DNA of 20,252 nucleotides from a virus, in IMG/VR virus record IMGVR_UViG_3300042154_000348, positions 1 through 20,252 of that record; one strand, 5' to 3'. Below, piece after piece: positions 2,155 to 14,197 of this stretch. The notes beneath the pieces are model-generated. The model had not been told where the DNA came from. It saw only the letters and a program-made list of their open reading frames with translations, and did not search any database. How positions within the stretch are numbered: position 1 is the stretch's first letter; the number at the start of each line of letters is the position of its first letter. A program made the translations under genes and the position numbers.

Positions 2155-2433
2155 ATGGCAGGTACAGGAGGTAAAAGGGAAGGCGCTGGTCGTAAATCTT
2201 TAGCAACAGAGATTAAAGGATTTAACCTAGCTGCTCCACACGTTGAAGATGCTTTCAGAGTAATAGCGGAAATAATGATTGACGAGACTAAGAGACCGAC
2301 AGATCGTATTGCTAGTGCTAAGATACTAATCGAATATGGTTGTGGTAAACCTAAGGAGAAAGTAGAATCTGATATCACAATCAATACAACATCACTAAAA
2401 GATTTGATTAACTTTGGTAACACTGAATCCTAA
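2155..2433 (+). CDS. terS: Terminase small subunit
   Basis: This 92-aa protein has the glycine/lysine-rich N-terminus GGKREGAGRKS (5-15), a hallmark of one group of phage small terminases, followed by helices suited to DNA binding and oligomerisation. The small subunit recognises the packaging site on concatemeric DNA and hands it to the large subunit. Its C-terminal 20 bases overlap the large terminase gene in a different frame, the classical terS-terL arrangement. It is shorter than many small terminases (usually 110-180 aa), so the N-terminal domain and a short oligomerisation segment may be all there is. It is the first gene after the inverted-repeat gap. Confidence 0.8.
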   Translation: MAGTGGKREGAGRKSLATEIKGFNLAAPHVEDAFRVIAEIMIDETKRPTDRIASAKILIEYGCGKPKEKVESDITINTTSLKDLINFGNTES

Positions 2434-3619
2434 ATATAAACCATTCGGAAGTGATAGCAGGTATTTTATTATTACTGGTGGTCGTGGGAGTGGGAAGTCT
2501 TACAGTATTAACTTGCTACTTCTATTACTTACATATGAAAGTGGGCATACCATTCTATTTACGAGATACACACTTACTTCTGCTCACGTTTCTATTATTC
2601 CTGAGTTTATTGATAAGATTGATGTACTAGATAAGCATTCAGATTTCCATATAACAAAGGATGAGATTATAAACCTAAGGACAGGAAGTAAGATATTATT
2701 CAAGGGTATTAAAACAAGCTCAGGAACTCAGACGGCAAACCTTAAGTCTTTAGCTGGTGTTACAACATGGATACTAGATGAAGCAGAGGAGCTAACAGAT
2801 GAAGATACATTCGATAAGATAGACTATTCAATACGATCTAAAGACAAACAAAATAGGGTAATACTTATACTTAATCCAAGCACGAAAGAGCATTTTATTT
2901 ACAAGAAGTTCTTTGAAGCGAAAGGAGTTGAAGCTGGAAGTAATACAATCAAAGGCGACACGACATACATTCATACTACATACTTAGATAACGTAGAGAA
3001 CTTATCGGAATCGTTCTTAAATCAAATAGAAACGATAAAGGAACGCAGACCTGACAAGTATAAGCACACTATCTTAGGTGGATGGCTAGACAAAGCTGAG
3101 GGAGTTATCTTTACCAATTGGAGAATAGGAGAGTTCAATAAAGATAATGGCAGTGTATTCGGTCAGGATTACGGTTTCAGTAACGATCCATCTACATTGA
3201 TTGAAACGTCAATTGATAGAACTAACAAACGAATATACATAAAAGAACACATACATAAGCAAGGATTAACAACATCGGAACTTGCACAACTAAACCAACA
3301 ATTTGCAGGACGTGATTTAATAGTAGGTGATAATTCAGAGCCTAGATTGATTGCAGAACTTAAGGCGAGAGGTTTAAATATAGTAGCGACAATTAAAGGT
3401 GCAGATTCAGTTAAATATGGTATAAGTTTAATTCAAGATTATGACTTGATTATTGAAGAAAATTCCGTAAATTTGATAAAAGAATTAAACAACTATTGTT
3501 GGCTAGAAAAGAAGAGTGAGACGCCAATCGATAAATGGAATCACTGCTTAGATGCAATGAGATATGCGATTAGTTACCAATTAGCTAATCCAAACAAAGG
3601 AAAGTATTCAATTTACTAA
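2414..3619 (+). CDS. terL: Terminase large subunit, ATPase/nuclease (TTG start)
   Basis: This motor packages DNA into the prohead and cuts concatemers. Walker A is GGRGSGKS at 22-29 and Walker B WILDEAEE at 119-126 with catalytic E123. The RNase H-like nuclease follows with likely metal ligands D252 (FGQDYGFSNDPS), D306 (LIVGDNSEP) and D380 (CLDAMRYA). The total of about 401 aa is on the short side but complete. The family start runs x-x-NLNPK or similar before the SDSRYF segment, and only TTG at 2414-2416 fits. No ATG or GTG lies between the upstream stop TGA 2405-2407 and the Walker A motif. Initiation at TTG, probably coupled to terS termination 20 bases later, is therefore inferred. Confidence 0.95.
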   Translation: MVTLNPKYKPFGSDSRYFIITGGRGSGKSYSINLLLLLLTYESGHTILFTRYTLTSAHVSIIPEFIDKIDVLDKHSDFHITKDEIINLRTGSKILFKGIKTSSGTQTANLKSLAGVTTWILDEAEELTDEDTFDKIDYSIRSKDKQNRVILILNPSTKEHFIYKKFFEAKGVEAGSNTIKGDTTYIHTTYLDNVENLSESFLNQIETIKERRPDKYKHTILGGWLDKAEGVIFTNWRIGEFNKDNGSVFGQDYGFSNDPSTLIETSIDRTNKRIYIKEHIHKQGLTTSELAQLNQQFAGRDLIVGDNSEPRLIAELKARGLNIVATIKGADSVKYGISLIQDYDLIIEENSVNLIKELNNYCWLEKKSETPIDKWNHCLDAMRYAISYQLANPNKGKYSIY

Positions 3620-3835: not shown

Positions 3836-4158
3836 TGGAGGAAAAAGAATTAAGAATAGGCAACTATGTTAATATAGAAGATACAGTTCTTAGGGTTGAT
3901 TTACAAGAACTTTATTATAATTCGTCGCTTATGAATCCTATCCCACTCACGGAAGAATGGCTATTGAAGTTTAATCTAAATAACCCAACAAATAAACATC
4001 CGTACCACTTTAAAAAATCAATGGTAGAATTTCTACATAGTGAGTATCAAAATGAATTAAAGTGTTTTTATAATAATGTACCTATGTTTTCATTACCTTG
4101 TGCATACGTTCATCAATTGCAAAACTTGTACTTTGCATTAACAGGAGAGGAACTATGA
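3832..4158 (+). CDS. Conserved Bacteroidota phage protein with LTEEWL...YVHQLQNLYFALTGEEL
   Basis: This protein of 107-108 aa (ATG 3832 or 3835, two starts in tandem) has a RIGNYV segment at 8-13, PLTEEWLLKFN at 38-48 and a strongly conserved-looking C-terminus YVHQLQNLYFALTGEEL (92-108). I recall this three-part pattern in many Bacteroidota phage and prophage genes of unknown function. It has no catalytic signature. The stop TGA is shared with the ATG of the chaperone gene (ATGA 4155-4158). The AGGAGAGG before that ATG is part of the LTGEEL codons, so it should not be taken as proof of a Shine-Dalgarno site. Confidence 0.68.
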   Translation: MMEEKELRIGNYVNIEDTVLRVDLQELYYNSSLMNPIPLTEEWLLKFNLNNPTNKHPYHFKKSMVEFLHSEYQNELKCFYNNVPMFSLPCAYVHQLQNLYFALTGEEL

Positions 4159-4844
4159 AGTTAGAATTAGTAATACCAACATCGTTAAATGAGATACCTT
4201 TGATGCACTACCAAAAGTTTATGGTAGTTGCATCGAATAAGGATAATTCAGATATGTTTATATCTCAGAAAATGATTGAGATATTCTGCGGTATAGAATT
4301 AAAGCAAGTTGTTAATATTAAACTTAACGACATAATAGATCTTACAACTCATTTCAATAAGCTATTCAAAGATAAGTTGGAGCTTAAAAAGACATTCGAG
4401 ATACAAGGAGTAAAGTTTGGATTCATTAATGAGTTAGAAGATATTTCGTTTGGTGAGTATATAGATTTAGAATCTAATATTATCGACGTACAATCATTCC
4501 ACAAAGCAATGGCTGTTATGTACCGACCTATAACAAGTGAGAAAGGAAATAAGTACACCATAGAGAAATATAACGGAACGTCAAACTATGCCGACTTAAT
4601 GAAGTACGCACCGCTTGATGTTGTATTGCCTGCATCGGTTTTTTTTTGGAGTTTAGGAAAAGAACTGTTGACGGCTACCCTGTCTTATTTAGAGAAACAG
4701 ATGACGAAGAAGAGCAAAACGATTTTAGCGAAACAGCTCAATTTGGAAAGCAATGGGGATGGTATCAATCAATATATCAACTCGCTAAAGGAGACATTAC
4801 AAAGTTTGAACGAGTTACAAGCGCGGGACTTTTTGAGTGCTTAA
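4155..4844 (+). CDS. Tail assembly chaperone, zero-frame product (229 aa)
   Basis: This helical, soluble protein corresponds to the gpG-type chaperone that coats the tape-measure protein during tail assembly. The start is ATG 4155, coupled by ATGA to the previous gene. The same frame is open to 4098, but that extension would lie inside the neighbour and is not protein-like. The body (residues 1-164) is followed by a slippery T9 run at 4639-4647. In the zero frame translation continues through FWSLGKELLTATLSYLEKQ and NGDGINQYINSLKETL to TAA 4842-4844. That tail also looks like a real conserved helix rather than noise, so both frames of 4646-4844 appear to be used. The family assignment rests on the frameshift architecture and partial memory of Bacteroidota homologues. 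Confidence 0.78.
   Translation: MKLELVIPTSLNEIPLMHYQKFMVVASNKDNSDMFISQKMIEIFCGIELKQVVNIKLNDIIDLTTHFNKLFKDKLELKKTFEIQGVKFGFINELEDISFGEYIDLESNIIDVQSFHKAMAVMYRPITSEKGNKYTIEKYNGTSNYADLMKYAPLDVVLPASVFFWSLGKELLTATLSYLEKQMTKKSKTILAKQLNLESNGDGINQYINSLKETLQSLNELQARDFLSA
4640..4646 (+). promoter_or_regulatory. Programmed -1 frameshift slippery site (T TTT TTT)
   Basis: In the chaperone frame the codons read GTT TTT TTT TGG from 4638, so T4640 plus two TTT codons forms an ideal X XXY YYZ heptamer. Slipping back one base continues at TTG 4646 into a 91-codon frame ending at 4921. Tail chaperones of lambda-like and many other siphophages use just such a -1 shift. No strong downstream stem-loop at the usual 5-9 base distance is evident; a weak GACGG/CC-GTC pairing at 4670-4684 is rather far away. 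In-frame TTTTTTA heptamers also occur in the 779-aa tail gene but lead to quick stops, which shows the motif alone is not enough. Confidence 0.8.
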
Positions 4845-4921
4845 CGATGCTCACGTTTGAAAAGCAAAAGAGCGACATAGAATATAGACAATTAAAACGA
4901 CAACATGAAAGGCTACTATAA
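4646..4921 (+). CDS. -1 frame extension of the tail assembly chaperone (gpGT-type)
   Basis: This frame has no ATG until near its end; its first codon is TTG in the slippery run, so it is best read as the second half of a 164 + 91 = 255-aa frameshift product of the chaperone gene. It encodes an acidic stretch (ETDDEEEQNDFSE), then FGKQWGWYQSIYQLAKGD, ITKFERV, ECLTMLTFEKQ and a basic helical end. The Trp/Tyr-rich segment is the kind of domain that binds tape-measure protein or tail tube in T-type extensions. It overlaps the zero frame for about 199 bases and the next gene by 17. Independent initiation at TTG is possible but less likely. Confidence 0.75.
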   Translation: MEFRKRTVDGYPVLFRETDDEEEQNDFSETAQFGKQWGWYQSIYQLAKGDITKFERVTSAGLFECLTMLTFEKQKSDIEYRQLKRQHERLL

Positions 4922-5363
4922 TTTAACAGACACATTGTATAACTTCTTAATAACTGACGCATTAGTAAACCAAGTTACAAAGGGAAGTTTGGATAAGATT
5001 ACGAACGCGAAAAAGGATATGTATCCATTGGTTCACGTTATGATTAACGGCGCAAAGATTGACGGTCCTAGCGTTGTGTATAACATATCTATTCTCGCAA
5101 TGGACTTGGTCGATTATTCAAATGCTGATCATGTTAATTTATATTACGGCAATGATAACTTAGATGATGTATTACACAATACGTTCTTGATTTGTCAAAG
5201 ATTCATAGAGAGTGCAAGACGTGGGAGCATGAGCGATTTGCTTTTCTCTGTTGAAAATGATGCTGCGGACTTAGAACCGTTTGTTGAAAGGTTTACGGAT
5301 GATGTAGCTGGTTGGTCAATGACATTCGATGTTACAACTGTTAACGATATGACTATATGTTAG
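4905..5363 (+). CDS. Putative tail terminator/completion-type protein (152 aa)
   Basis: This is an alpha/beta protein beginning MKGYYNLTDTLYNFLITD, with PLVHVMINGA at 41-50, ESARRGSMSD in the middle, DVAGWSMTFDV near 132-142 and the ending NDMTIC. I recognise the pattern as recurrent in Bacteroidota phages, always near the gp10-like and chaperone genes. Its size and the regular strand pattern resemble tail terminator or tail-completion proteins that cap the tail tube and join it to the neck, but I see no diagnostic motif. It starts inside the end of the frameshifted chaperone frame and overlaps the following gene by seven bases. Confidence 0.6.
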   Translation: MKGYYNLTDTLYNFLITDALVNQVTKGSLDKITNAKKDMYPLVHVMINGAKIDGPSVVYNISILAMDLVDYSNADHVNLYYGNDNLDDVLHNTFLICQRFIESARRGSMSDLLFSVENDAADLEPFVERFTDDVAGWSMTFDVTTVNDMTIC

Positions 5364-9291: not shown

Positions 9292-9464
9292 TAGAGCAAA
9301 TAATAGCCTTACTAAAGATAGATAACTTCTATGGAGTGAGCGAGAATATAGACATTGCAAAGGGAAAATATCTATTGTCAAATTCCTTTCGTGTAAACTA
9401 CAAACAGGGCAAAAGAGAGTTATTATTGAAAGCAAAACAACATGGCAGAAAAGAAAGTAATTGA
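9288..9464 (+). CDS. Small ORF overlapping tail gene and tape measure (58 aa)
   Basis: ATG 9288 shares ATGA with the stop of the 779-aa tail gene. The ORF runs 58 codons, ending inside the tape-measure gene, which it overlaps by 23 bases. The protein (MIEQIIALLKIDNFYGVSEN...) is helical then basic, with normal amino-acid composition up to about residue 52; the last six residues are read from the overlap. It spans exactly the otherwise empty 150-base gap, which strongly suggests a real gene. I do not recognise a domain; a small tail accessory protein is possible. Confidence 0.6.
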   Translation: MIEQIIALLKIDNFYGVSENIDIAKGKYLLSNSFRVNYKQGKRELLLKAKQHGRKESN

Positions 9465-11169
9465 ATTAGAAGTAAAGACAAACTCTGCATCTCTTAAGGC
9501 ACAATTAAGGGAGGCACAACAAGAAGTTCAGGCACTTTCTGATAAGTTCGGTATAACGTCTAAAGAAGCCGTTACTGCTGCAAAAAAGGCTGCTGAACTT
9601 AAGGATGCTATTGGTGACGCTAAGGCTTTAACTGATGCCTTTAATCCTGATGCTAAATTCAACGCTTTGTCTACTTCTATTGGTGGTGTGCTTAATGGAT
9701 TTCAAGCGTTTGAGGGCGCTTTGGGATTAGTAGGAGTTGAGGGTAAAGCTGTTCAAGAGCAATTACTCAAAGTACAATCTGCAATGGCACTTGCTGATGG
9801 TATTAGCGGAGTGATGGCTGCTAAAGACGCATTTTTAAATCTAGGAACTGTTATAAAAACTAGTCTTGTCTCAGCATTCTCAAGTCTAAAAAGTGCGATA
9901 ATAACAACGGGTATAGGTGCTTTGGTTATTGCTATTGGTGTATTACTTCCAAAAATCATGGATTGGATTGATTCAACGGAAGAAATAAACGATGCTAACA
10001 AGAAATTCAACGATACACTAGACAAGCAAAACGGATTAATTGATAAGCAAACTAAACAACTTAAAGAAAGACAAGACGTTGAGTTGAAAAGAGCTAAGGC
10101 AAGAGGTGCGAGTGAAAAAGAGATTCTAGACATTGAAAAAGTGCAGATAGGTGAAAGAGATAAGTTGTATCAGAAATCTATTAAAACTATAAATGACGCT
10201 ATAAAACAAAAGACGGGAGCTTATAAATGGGCATTAAAAGAAGAAGAGTGGGAACTATCTAAGAGTATTCAAAAAGAAATTAAAGCACTAGAGAAACAAA
10301 AGGGAGACATAATAGACAACAAACGTTCTGAGCATAATCAACTAGGAATAGAGCAAACTCAATTCTTTTACGACACTAAACAAAAACGTGCAGATGATTT
10401 AAAAGATGCTCAAGAAAAAGCACGTGCTGAAGCTGAAAAGAAAAGAAAAGAAAAGGAAGCTTATGATAAAGAAGCGCTAGCTGGTGAGGAATTATTTCTT
10501 AGCAGAGGTAAAAAAATGCGAGATGATGCACTAGTTAATTATCAAGCTGACAAAAACAAACAGTTAGCAATTGATCAACAGGCATATTTAACAAGAAAAG
10601 AAATATCAGACAAACAAGCTGCGGAAGATGAAAAGAAAAGGTTAGAAGACTTAGCCAACGCTCAAGCTTTATCAGATGCAAAGTTTAGTATTGCTAGAAA
10701 TTCATTTTCGGTAATTGGAGATTTAGCAACGGCATTTGCTGGAAAGTCAGAGAAAGAACAAAAGAGAGCGTTCGACATTCAGAAAGCGGCGAATATTGCT
10801 GGGGGTTTAATGGATACTTATAAAGCTGCATTAAGTGCCTACAAAGATACACCAGGTGGGCCATTAGTTAAAGGTATTGCTGCAGGGTTAACGGTTGCTG
10901 GTGGTTTAGCTATGGTTAACAATATTCGTAAACAAGAATTTAAAGGAGGATCTACAGGTAGTACTACTACACCAAGTGCAGGAGGTTCTAGTAATGGAGG
11001 TAATGATAATACACAAGTAGTAACTCCTAGATTCAACATTATAGGAAGTCAAAACCAAACACAATTGGCTCAATTAAATCAAGCGCCGATTAAAGCGTAT
11101 GTTGTAGGTTCGGATGTTACGACGCAACAAATGTTAGACAAGAAAAAAATACAAAATGCCACTTTATAA
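9442..11169 (+). CDS. Tape-measure protein (575 aa)
   Basis: The tape measure sets tail length and is ejected with the DNA. The N-terminus is VIELEVKTNSASLKAQLREAQ, a common opening for this family. A hydrophobic segment lies at about 152-170 (IITTGIGALVIAIGVLLP), typical of tape measures that enter the host inner membrane. Charged helices full of Lys, Glu and Gln, coiled-coil-like, span about 175-400. A conserved-looking C-terminal region follows (AANIAGGLMDTYKAALSAYK near 450, then a glycine-rich hydrophobic stretch) with a Ser/Gly/Asn tail. It is short for the class; at about 0.15 nm per residue the predicted tail is close to 85-90 nm, a flexible or medium siphovirus tail. It is separated from the chaperone by five genes, which is unusual. 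Confidence 0.85.
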   Translation: MAEKKVIELEVKTNSASLKAQLREAQQEVQALSDKFGITSKEAVTAAKKAAELKDAIGDAKALTDAFNPDAKFNALSTSIGGVLNGFQAFEGALGLVGVEGKAVQEQLLKVQSAMALADGISGVMAAKDAFLNLGTVIKTSLVSAFSSLKSAIITTGIGALVIAIGVLLPKIMDWIDSTEEINDANKKFNDTLDKQNGLIDKQTKQLKERQDVELKRAKARGASEKEILDIEKVQIGERDKLYQKSIKTINDAIKQKTGAYKWALKEEEWELSKSIQKEIKALEKQKGDIIDNKRSEHNQLGIEQTQFFYDTKQKRADDLKDAQEKARAEAEKKRKEKEAYDKEALAGEELFLSRGKKMRDDALVNYQADKNKQLAIDQQAYLTRKEISDKQAAEDEKKRLEDLANAQALSDAKFSIARNSFSVIGDLATAFAGKSEKEQKRAFDIQKAANIAGGLMDTYKAALSAYKDTPGGPLVKGIAAGLTVAGGLAMVNNIRKQEFKGGSTGSTTTPSAGGSSNGGNDNTQVVTPRFNIIGSQNQTQLAQLNQAPIKAYVVGSDVTTQQMLDKKKIQNATL

Positions 11170-11180
11170 GTTATAACAAT

Positions 11181-11753
11181 ATGGAAAAGTTACAAAATAT
11201 AGAACTTACAATTAAGGACGAACAAGAGCAAGGTGTCTTCGCAATTAGTTTTGTAGATAGACCTGCTATTGAGGAAGATTTTATTTTGCTTTCTGAGATG
11301 GAGGTTGAAATGAAAGTAATTGACGAGGGTAAACGTGAAGTAATTGGGCTTGCATTAGTTCCTGAAAAGAAGATTCTAAGACGTATAAAAGATAAAGAAT
11401 TTACGGTGTCATTTAGTGCTGAAACAATTGCTAAAACTCAAGAGCTTTACATGAAAAAATTGTACGGAAATAATGTTACGGTAGATCATGCAGAAAATGT
11501 AGACGGTGTAGCATTAATTGAGTCATGGATTGTAGAGGATGTTAAGAATGACAAATCAAACCTATATAAACTTAATGCTCCAGTTGGTGCTTGGGTTGTT
11601 AAGATGAAAGTTTACAATGAAGAAGTTTACCAGGGGATTAAAGATGGTAAGTTCAACGGGTTTAGCATTGAGGGTAAATATGATGGCTTAGAGCAGTTAG
11701 AAATGCAAGACGACATCATGAATGAGATTAAAGAGTTACTTGGCAAACTATGA
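11181..11753 (+). CDS. XkdF-like prohead serine protease (190 aa)
   Basis: This protein fits the XkdF/S78-type prohead protease seen in many Bacteroidota and Firmicutes phages, which trims the scaffold and capsid protein during prohead maturation. Visible marks are FVDRPAIEEDF near 24-34, VSFSAETI at 76-83, TVDHAENVDG at 100-109 with candidate catalytic His103, the ESWIVED strand at 114-120, APVGAWVVKMKV at 133-144 and GFSIEGKYDG at 160-169 with candidate nucleophile Ser162. Size agrees with the family. It starts 11 bases after the tape-measure stop and opens the head block; the next gene begins within its stop codon region (overlap of four bases). Confidence 0.85.
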   Translation: MEKLQNIELTIKDEQEQGVFAISFVDRPAIEEDFILLSEMEVEMKVIDEGKREVIGLALVPEKKILRRIKDKEFTVSFSAETIAKTQELYMKKLYGNNVTVDHAENVDGVALIESWIVEDVKNDKSNLYKLNAPVGAWVVKMKVYNEEVYQGIKDGKFNGFSIEGKYDGLEQLEMQDDIMNEIKELLGKL

Positions 11754-12010
11754 GTGAAATTCCATATTTCGTACGATACAAAGATGTAACTACATTAGAC
11801 AGTACGGATAGTCTATATTTGGACGACGCTACGAGTGATGTGCCTAAGAAGATATCGCTCACCAACTTCATGGATGGATTACCAAGTACTTACACAACTA
11901 ATAACACGATCTTAAGTGGAGGTGTAAATAATCAAGACGAGGACGTTCCACAATTGATAGGTGGATTAAATGGAGTTTCTAAAAATTCAAACACTATAAA
12001 TAATGGCTAA
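11750..12010 (+). CDS. Small fibre-like or decoration protein (86 aa)
   Basis: Residues about 10-42 follow the pattern LDSTDSLYLDD...PKKISLTNFM, a short module found at the N-terminus of phage fibre or decoration proteins in which DSD-x-L-x-x-D is followed by a K-x-I/T-x-x-N/L strand. After residue 50 the sequence is Asn/Thr/Gly-rich and likely unstructured. A similar opening occurs in the 149-aa gene at 18558, so the two may share an attachment module. It overlaps its neighbours on both sides (4 and 8 bases). It might be the base piece for the fibre encoded directly behind it; that is positional inference. Confidence 0.55.
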   Translation: MSEIPYFVRYKDVTTLDSTDSLYLDDATSDVPKKISLTNFMDGLPSTYTTNNTILSGGVNNQDEDVPQLIGGLNGVSKNSNTINNG

Positions 12011-13352
12011 CGAAACAAGAAGAATAATAATAAAGAAAGGCGCTGGCGCTCCTACTATTCCAAGTAGCTCAGACCATACCGATGGGACGTGGCTAGCTAG
12101 TGATATTTACGAGGGAGAGCTTTACCTAGATACAACAAACGGATTAAATTATACACGTTATGGTAGTACGATTGTTGAATTATTTCCAACGTCTACAGGT
12201 TTAGCTGGCAATGAATTTGTATTTGTTTTTTCTAAATTAGATTTACCTACAGCGGTTAGTGGTGTAATTACATTGGCTAATAACTATACATACTTTATCA
12301 CAAAGACAATTGACTTAACAGGAGATAGGATTGTAGCTGGTGTAAATAGTGTTATTATCGGTGGATCATCTGAGAATTGTATCCTTAAATCTACGGGGCT
12401 AAGTTCATCTACTGCATTAATTACGTCGGTATATTCTTTGCCTATTAGAAATATAACAATCACTCATGGTACTGCTTTAAATCTAGATGGTGACGGAACT
12501 ACTACTGCACTAGATTGGTTCGGTGTGAACTTTACGGATTGTGCTACGGTTGGAACTATTAAAGACTACACCAACTTTGTGATGAGTGATAGTGCATTTT
12601 TGAATAGTGGTAACCTAACTTTTGACGGAACAATTGGAACTATCGGAATGAGTAATTGCTTATTTGATTGCGCTACAACTTCTACTGCGTTAATCCTTCC
12701 AAGTACACTAACTGTAAGTAGAAGATTTAGAATTATATATTCTTCATTTGTAGTATTGAGTGGCGAAACAGGGATAAGTGTTGATGCGAGTGCTACGATT
12801 TCTAGTGAGAGATACATATTAGATACAGTAAACTTCAGCGGTGGTGGAACGTATACGAGTGGTGTGACATATACGGATAACAAGGCATTGTTTGTGAATT
12901 GTGTGGGTATTACAAACACTTCTACAAAAGGCTTTATGTATATGCTTAACAATACAACCGATACATCTATCGGAGTGTCAAACGTAAATGTTTGGGTTAA
13001 AGCTACAGGTACAACTACTTCAGGGACTAATTCAAAATTCACGCACACAACAAATAGACTTACATATAATGGTGCTTTTACAAACTCATTCTTAGTAACA
13101 TTAAATGTAACAGTTCGAAGCGGTGGCACGAATCAATTAATTAGTATTGGAGTGGCTAAAAATGGAACTGCAATAGCTGAAAGTGAGGGGATAGTTAGAA
13201 CTACAACATCAAACGTTGAGCATGGGGGAAGTACACAAGCAGTTGTGGAAATGGTTGCGAATGATTATGTAGAACTATTTGTAAGAAATACAAGTTCAAC
13301 GGATATAAGAGTAACAGATTTTAATTTTAATGTAGTAAAAATACCAGTATAA
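12003..13352 (+). CDS. Beta-rich fibre with C1q/TNF-like C-terminal domain (449 aa)
   Basis: The N-terminal segment (RIIIKKGAGAP...GELYLDTTNGL, about 5-50) resembles the N-terminal module of several phage fibres and tropism determinants. Residues about 75-300 are Thr/Ser/Gly-rich with repeated short strands (SNCLFDCATTS, ILDTVNFSGGG), consistent with a beta-helix or spike shaft. The last 140 residues (SKFTHTTNRLTYNG, LISIGVAKNGTAI, VVEMVANDYVELFVRN) have the strand pattern of a C1q/TNF-like jelly roll, a common trimeric binding head. Lying among head genes (protease, scaffold, capsid) rather than at the tail end, it could be a capsid fibre instead of a receptor-binding tail fibre. The fold claim is from pattern only. 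Confidence 0.62.
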   Translation: MANETRRIIIKKGAGAPTIPSSSDHTDGTWLASDIYEGELYLDTTNGLNYTRYGSTIVELFPTSTGLAGNEFVFVFSKLDLPTAVSGVITLANNYTYFITKTIDLTGDRIVAGVNSVIIGGSSENCILKSTGLSSSTALITSVYSLPIRNITITHGTALNLDGDGTTTALDWFGVNFTDCATVGTIKDYTNFVMSDSAFLNSGNLTFDGTIGTIGMSNCLFDCATTSTALILPSTLTVSRRFRIIYSSFVVLSGETGISVDASATISSERYILDTVNFSGGGTYTSGVTYTDNKALFVNCVGITNTSTKGFMYMLNNTTDTSIGVSNVNVWVKATGTTTSGTNSKFTHTTNRLTYNGAFTNSFLVTLNVTVRSGGTNQLISIGVAKNGTAIAESEGIVRTTTSNVEHGGSTQAVVEMVANDYVELFVRNTSSTDIRVTDFNFNVVKIPV

Positions 13353-13600: not shown

Positions 13601-14197
13601 ATGGAAAAAGAAACACTTTTAAAAAAGGTTAAAAACTTCCTTGTTGAATTGACAGGTGTAGAGCCTGAGGTATTAGACACGAAGTTAGAAGACCAAGTAT
13701 TAGCTGATGGTATGACTACTATTCAAGCTGATATGTTTGAAGCTGGGGAGAACGTATTTATCGTAGTTCCTGATGCTGAACCTGTGCCACTTCCTGTTGG
13801 TGAGTATGAACTAGCAGACGGCAAAATCTTAGTAGTTAAGCAAGAAGGAATCATTGATTCTATTGTTGAAGCTGAAGCTACTGAAGAGAATCCTGCAGAA
13901 GCAGAAACAGAAGTGCCTGTTGAAGCTGAAAAAACACCTGAACAAGCGAAGGTTAAAAAAATCGTACGTTCACAAGTTGAAGAGCAACATTTTTCTGCAT
14001 TAGAAGAAAAGATTGCAGAGTTAGAAGCTAAAATTGTAGAGCTTTCTAAGGTTACTGATTCCGTTGTAGAGCTAGCAGAAGAGCCTAAACCAATCCAGTT
14101 CAATCCTGAGAATTCAAAACCAATCGAGCATATCGACTTAACACCAGGAAAAGCGAGAAGTATTCGCGATAACATTTTAGAAACAATTTATAAATAA
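13601..14197 (+). CDS. Scaffold-like head assembly protein (198 aa)
   Basis: The N-terminal part (residues 25-85: LADGMTTIQADMFEAGENVF, PVGEYELADGKILVV) is an all-beta module I recall from Bacteroidota phage genes immediately before the capsid gene. A Glu/Ala/Pro-rich acidic linker (about 90-118) and a coiled-coil helix (about 128-155, LEEKIAELEAKIVELSK) follow, and then a helical C-terminus. Acidic, elongated, coiled-coil character and the position just before the major capsid gene match a scaffolding protein that guides prohead assembly and is cleaved by the protease. The beta module is not standard for scaffolds, so a decoration role is an alternative. Confidence 0.65.
   Translation: MEKETLLKKVKNFLVELTGVEPEVLDTKLEDQVLADGMTTIQADMFEAGENVFIVVPDAEPVPLPVGEYELADGKILVVKQEGIIDSIVEAEATEENPAEAETEVPVEAEKTPEQAKVKKIVRSQVEEQHFSALEEKIAELEAKIVELSKVTDSVVELAEEPKPIQFNPENSKPIEHIDLTPGKARSIRDNILETIYK

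Follow-up and report, generated by a model that had tools for sequence, protein, structure and literature searches.

The locus described here raises the question of whether a single phage gene can yield two proteins whose different C-terminal tails are written in the same bases, and at which level the choice between the two tails would be made. The window, i.e. the whole stretch of DNA that was analysed, comprises 20,252 bases of the IMG/VR virus record IMGVR_UViG_3300042154_000348. A preliminary description of this DNA had proposed a tail assembly chaperone gene which, by a -1 frameshift on a run of T's, gives products of 229 and 255 amino acids (aa). The following features were delimited:

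4155..4844, + strand: open reading frame (ORF) of the zero-frame gene, 229 aa, with ATG at 4155 and stop at 4842-4844; it consists of a shared N-terminal domain (residues 1-164) and a helical zero-frame tail of 65 residues
4639..4647, + strand: T9 homopolymer in the sequence, putative slip site, kept as T9 or T10 in relatives
4640..4646, + strand: heptamer T_TTT_TTT in codon phase, identical in 305/305 loci
4646..4921, + strand: ORF of the -1 tail with WGWY motif, 91 codons plus stop, starting L-E-F-R
4647..4841, + strand: dual-coding overlap, 195 nt read in the zero and -1 frames, with purifying selection in both
4905..5363, + strand: next gene, 152 aa, phrog_30964, of unknown function; its start codon (ATG) falls within the last part of the -1 tail

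At the slip site the zero-frame codons read GTT TTT TTT TGG. The in-phase heptamer, the 91-codon -1 frame without an upstream ATG and both product lengths (229 aa from the ORF coordinates and 164+91 = 255 aa for the joined -1 product) were borne out when the sequence was read anew. The zero-frame tail is indeed long, but its size had to be corrected: there are 65 sense codons plus stop after the slip, not 66 codons, and 195 doubly read nucleotides (198 including the stop), not 199. Traced from the slip in the 5' direction, the -1 frame meets a TGA (at 4616) after no more than 9 open codons, none of them an ATG. As runs of eight T's are not rare in this AT-rich window (five matches versus 7.4 expected), the single sequence is weak evidence and the case depends on relatives.

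Taking these relatives into account, we assign a probability of roughly 0.85 to a two-product architecture in which both tails are under selection. One late gene of a tailed phage of Bacteroidota would thereby give rise to two proteins with a common 164-residue N-terminal domain and different C-terminal tails, and slippage at the run of nine T's (or U's) would choose between the tails. Without a slip, the 229-aa product would be made, its core helix continuing over the slip site into a helical tail; a -1 slip would lead to the 255-aa product carrying a helical WGWY domain. Both tails would thus stem from the same approximately 195 bases, for which comparison of relatives showed purifying selection in either frame.

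A first scan for relatives retained 80 loci with 51-92% identity over the shared part, and later scans started from Nonlabens phage P12024L and from two alignments. In all 307 loci that hold both parts the second part lies in the -1 frame. Run length was scored in 305 of them, the slip being too near the contig end in the other two; nine T's were present in 302 loci and ten in three, all with the same -1 relation. Homologues lacking the run, which the preliminary description had named as evidence against its proposal, were thus not encountered among the assessable loci. Exactly nine T's are also kept in four prophage-like loci in Bacteroidia genomes (L313-L316), among them the most distant locus, L316, with 19-28% identity. 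Scans with L313 and L314 as queries returned nothing new except one copy of L314, and no additional relatives turned up when genomes around the L316 host were searched. In L314 (around 2003-2012) the nine T's stand in another codon phase, GGT TTT TTT TTG as read by hand, which suggests that run length is what is kept.

For further comparison 110 representatives with below 85% nucleotide identity were used. Their -1 tails measure 79-93 codons, and the zero-frame tails 52-88 codons in 108 of them. The two short zero-frame tails, of 16 and 25 codons, belong to L088 and P12024L, the two relatives nearest the Nonlabens phage; they show that a long zero-frame tail is not required everywhere. The WGWY motif is invariant in the -1 tail of 36 aligned members; L316 carries YGWF at this place.

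The level at which the slip would occur was approached through the last base of the heptamer. This base is T in all 107 eligible representatives (which are related and do not represent 107 independent events), although a change from T to C would be silent in both frames; at comparable doubly silent sites of the same overlap C accounts for 35%. A ribosomal model allows any base at this position, and frameshifting does work on U_UUU_UUC, as SPP1 (PMC6316719) and an E. coli survey (PMC4066793) indicate. The homopolymer itself therefore appears to be under selection, which makes slippage of RNA polymerase at least as likely as ribosomal frameshifting. A host preference for UUU over UUC could mimic such selection on run length. 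An A or T run of about nine, the length described for genes with transcriptional slippage (PMC1088944), is kept here as a homopolymer, and on these comparisons we put the chance that RNA polymerase adds a U within the U9 run at about even.

The same two products might instead arise by classical -1 ribosomal frameshifting in the manner of lambda, P2 and HK97, with two tRNA-Phe slipping on U_UUU_UUU and no structural stimulator; we rate this at a little under an even chance. It agrees with the in-phase T_TTT_TTT found in all loci, with frameshifting of >0.10% on U_UU.U_UU.U in E. coli without stimulators (PMC4066793), and with the fact, which also tells against slippage by the polymerase, that known recoded tail chaperones such as those of lambda (PMC5009743) and P2 (P2 record) use the ribosome. 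It is at odds with the invariant, doubly silent T and with the nine T's retained in a different phase in L314. Moreover, no folding signal was detected in the RNA after the slip (mean z -0.24, -0.08 and 0.12 for 40, 60 and 100 nt), and an SD-like motif precedes the slip in only 34 of the 110 representatives. Both mechanisms would yield the identical 255-aa protein. Of the -1 frameshift put forward in the preliminary description, the -1 relation thus held in 305/305 loci, while for its ribosomal level the invariant run points equally or more to RNA polymerase. Runs of at least seven T's were scarcer in coding than in noncoding DNA of related loci (0.06 versus 0.40 per kb at length 7, the noncoding count being inflated by terminators); the scarcity of long T runs in genes gave no means of telling polymerase slippage from ribosomal frameshifting.

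Selection was assessed frame by frame in 95 disjoint sister pairs, using NN/SN (dN/dS of the zero frame, counted over changes nonsynonymous in the -1 frame) and its -1 counterpart NN/NS. Within the overlap the ratios were 0.41 [0.35-0.47] for the zero frame (w0) and 0.24 [0.21-0.28] for the -1 frame (w-1), i.e. both frames are under purifying selection and the zero frame is the less constrained. The unused frame outside the overlap showed none: upstream of the slip, where the zero frame alone is real, the -1 pseudo-frame gave 1.31, and beyond the zero-frame stop, where the -1 frame alone is real, the zero pseudo-frame gave 1.01. Bootstraps made clade by clade had the same direction, with a zero-frame interval that includes 1 in several clades. 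Selection on one frame only, which had been named beforehand as speaking against dual coding, was thus not what the relatives displayed. Within the overlap, apparent conservation extends to the +1 pseudo-frame (z 3.9); it was dismissed as a third coding frame, as such a value is expected when two frames fix most bases.

It is very improbable that the -1 product alone matters and that the zero frame stays open accidentally or because it echoes the -1 protein. The stronger constraint on the -1 frame would fit such a passive zero frame, as would the zero-frame motif NGDGI, part of which is forced by WGWY. Against it stand, besides the value of w0, the following results: (i) zero-frame stops, with an expectation computed from each -1 protein and phage codon usage, should number about 2-6 in most long-tailed members, and none was observed (P <0.001 for most longer tails, about 0.07 for the window alone); (ii) zero-frame similarity between clades exceeded the echo of the -1 frame (mean z 3.6, with values over 2 in 91% of pairs), with control frames ahead of the slip at 0.69 and -0.04; and (iii) in a column map the zero frame is constrained in two segments, codons 1-18 and 40-57, which a weak linker joins (the total z of this map, 35.7, takes no account of relatedness and should not be read as a probability). 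On these observations a passive zero frame was rejected.

Even less credit is due to the idea that the overlap is conserved as nucleotides, e.g. as an RNA structure or binding site, and not as zero-frame protein. Silent rates are depressed throughout the overlap, as this idea would have it, but the folding signal after the slip is missing and zero-frame stops are avoided. In addition, zero-frame replacements caused by changes silent in the -1 frame are conservative (mean BLOSUM -0.12 versus an expectation of -0.74 for transitions; p<0.0005), which is not expected from constraint at the nucleotide level only. Stop avoidance and conservative replacements led to the rejection of this explanation. 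With selection in both frames, the controls, the avoided stops and the conservative replacements, dual coding of about 195 bases is well supported, and the proposal that one gene specifies two products with both tails selected in the same bases has gained strong support from the selection tests in relatives.

The annotation of P12024L gene 41 from an internal ATG would suggest an independent gene for the -1 tail, but this reading was rejected on start codons: the stretch from the slip to WGWY is free of ATG in 99 of 104 representatives, and the -1 frame of the window has none ahead of WGWY either. Equally improbable is phase variation at the DNA level, in which replication slippage in the T9 would switch phages between products; homopolymers do mutate, and several BFVD models resembling both parts in one chain might be in-frame variants, but the -1 relation is constant in the 305 assessable loci, the three T10 runs included. 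Among predicted viral proteins, A0A6J5N0W0, A0A516L5A8, A0A6J5SVK3, A0A6J5MY57 and A0A6J5N3F3 combine, within a single chain, likeness to the shared domain and to the -1 tail; they may be relatives fused in frame or the outcome of joined annotations.

In an AlphaFold2 model of the zero-frame product (pLDDT 79.6, with low confidence in the tail), a helix at residues 154-184 spans the slip and a second one follows at 202-223. These predicted helices agree with the two constrained segments of the column map. The -1 tail is likewise predicted to be helical (pLDDT 74).

As for function, the zero-frame gene matched phrog_32199 (E 2.7e-14). Both halves of the gene are homologous to phrog_32199 and phrog_38404, respectively, with the T9 between them and the same -1 relation. 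A slip in the first ORF joins a -1 ORF lacking its own start, as in lambda G/GT, and a G/GT-like pair fits the common N-terminus, the two alternative tails and the location among late genes. The gene does not, however, lie after a major tail protein gene and ahead of an adjoining tape measure gene; it follows the terminase gene (2414-3619), and a tape-measure-like ORF (9442-11169; phrog_9483, E 3.3e-12) lies about 4.5 kb downstream. No named chaperone family was matched in Pfam and PHROGs, and no solved structure by sequence or by fold. The nearest hits were phrog_166, 'tail protein', a weak best match in 8 of 36 members (E 5e-4), and a weak match in BFVD to 'Tail assembly chaperone protein' (E 0.058). 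Architecture and neighbourhood thus speak for the tail assembly chaperone of the preliminary description, whereas a match to a known chaperone family at a convincing level is lacking. By analogy with G/GT, tail assembly chaperones are the most likely role of the pair, whose members would cover the tape measure protein and bring in subunits of the tail tube. Because no curated chaperone family was matched and the tape-measure-like gene is 4.5 kb away, the gene is filed under a family of its own, without annotation (phrog_32199 plus phrog_38404), probably working like G/GT. The full combination, namely two tail chaperones made through RNA polymerase slippage at an invariant T9 in widespread phages of Bacteroidota, with both tails from the same approximately 190 bases being needed, is put forward tentatively, at somewhat less than even odds.

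Genes 40 and 41 of Nonlabens (Persicivirga) phages P12024L/S (phrog_32199 and phrog_38404) are direct homologues, with 28% identity in the N domain, T9 and a -1 tail with WGWY; they differ by a zero-frame tail of 25 codons and are annotated as two unrelated hypothetical proteins. Lambda G/GT shares the principle of one gene with two products by a -1 slip, a common N-terminal domain and a startless second tail. It differs in its slip sequence GGGAAAG, in having 18 nt of zero frame after the slip and in directly preceding the tape measure gene, and no sequence relationship was detected. In P2, an annotated -1 frameshift in the tail region (E/E+E') gives a longer product, yet only 20 nt of zero frame follow the slip. 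The contrast that the preliminary description drew with the short overlap of lambda is correct and extends to P2, but 17.5 of SPP1 has about 61 codons after the slip (PMC6316719) and provides a precedent for a long overlap. Like the present gene, SPP1 17.5/17.5* combines a putative -1 slip on a U-rich sequence with a long zero-frame tail (173 versus 112 shared residues; PMC6316719); it differs in host and sequence, and its slip site is UUUUUUC, not T9. No both-frame selection test for this pair was found in the papers searched. Slippage on long A or U runs that gives alternative frames is also known from Thermus dnaX and Shigella mxiE (PMC1088944), which are bacterial genes of unrelated function.

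Searches of the open-access literature yielded no report of both-frame selection at such a site or of a chaperone family with an invariant T9, which is not proof of absence. With hundreds of relatives, single-coding controls on both sides and measurable selection in either frame, the locus is an extensive example, replicated by nature, of dual coding where recoding takes place. It also brings to light a recoded gene that had no annotation in phages of a common Bacteroidota-infecting group, and whose halves PHROGs splits into two unknown families. The invariant run raises the question of whether the ratio of the chaperones could be determined in a phage by RNA polymerase rather than by the ribosome.

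The gene order between 2414 and 17985 is unusual: the terminase gene is followed by the recoded gene and by tail genes, among them the tape-measure-like ORF (9442), and a putative capsid gene (14207) and the portal gene (16249) come after the tail genes. Two ORFs (11181-11753 and 13601-14197) match different parts of phrog_24921, namely positions 5-181 and 220-317. They look like the two pieces of a protease/scaffold gene into which other genes, among them a tail-fibre-like ORF at 12003-13352, were inserted. Finally, an ORF at 1235-1747 showed a weak match to sigma-70 region 2 just below the curated cut-off (Pfam, E 1.5e-4) and a match to a PHROG RNA polymerase sigma factor (E 2.5e-6).
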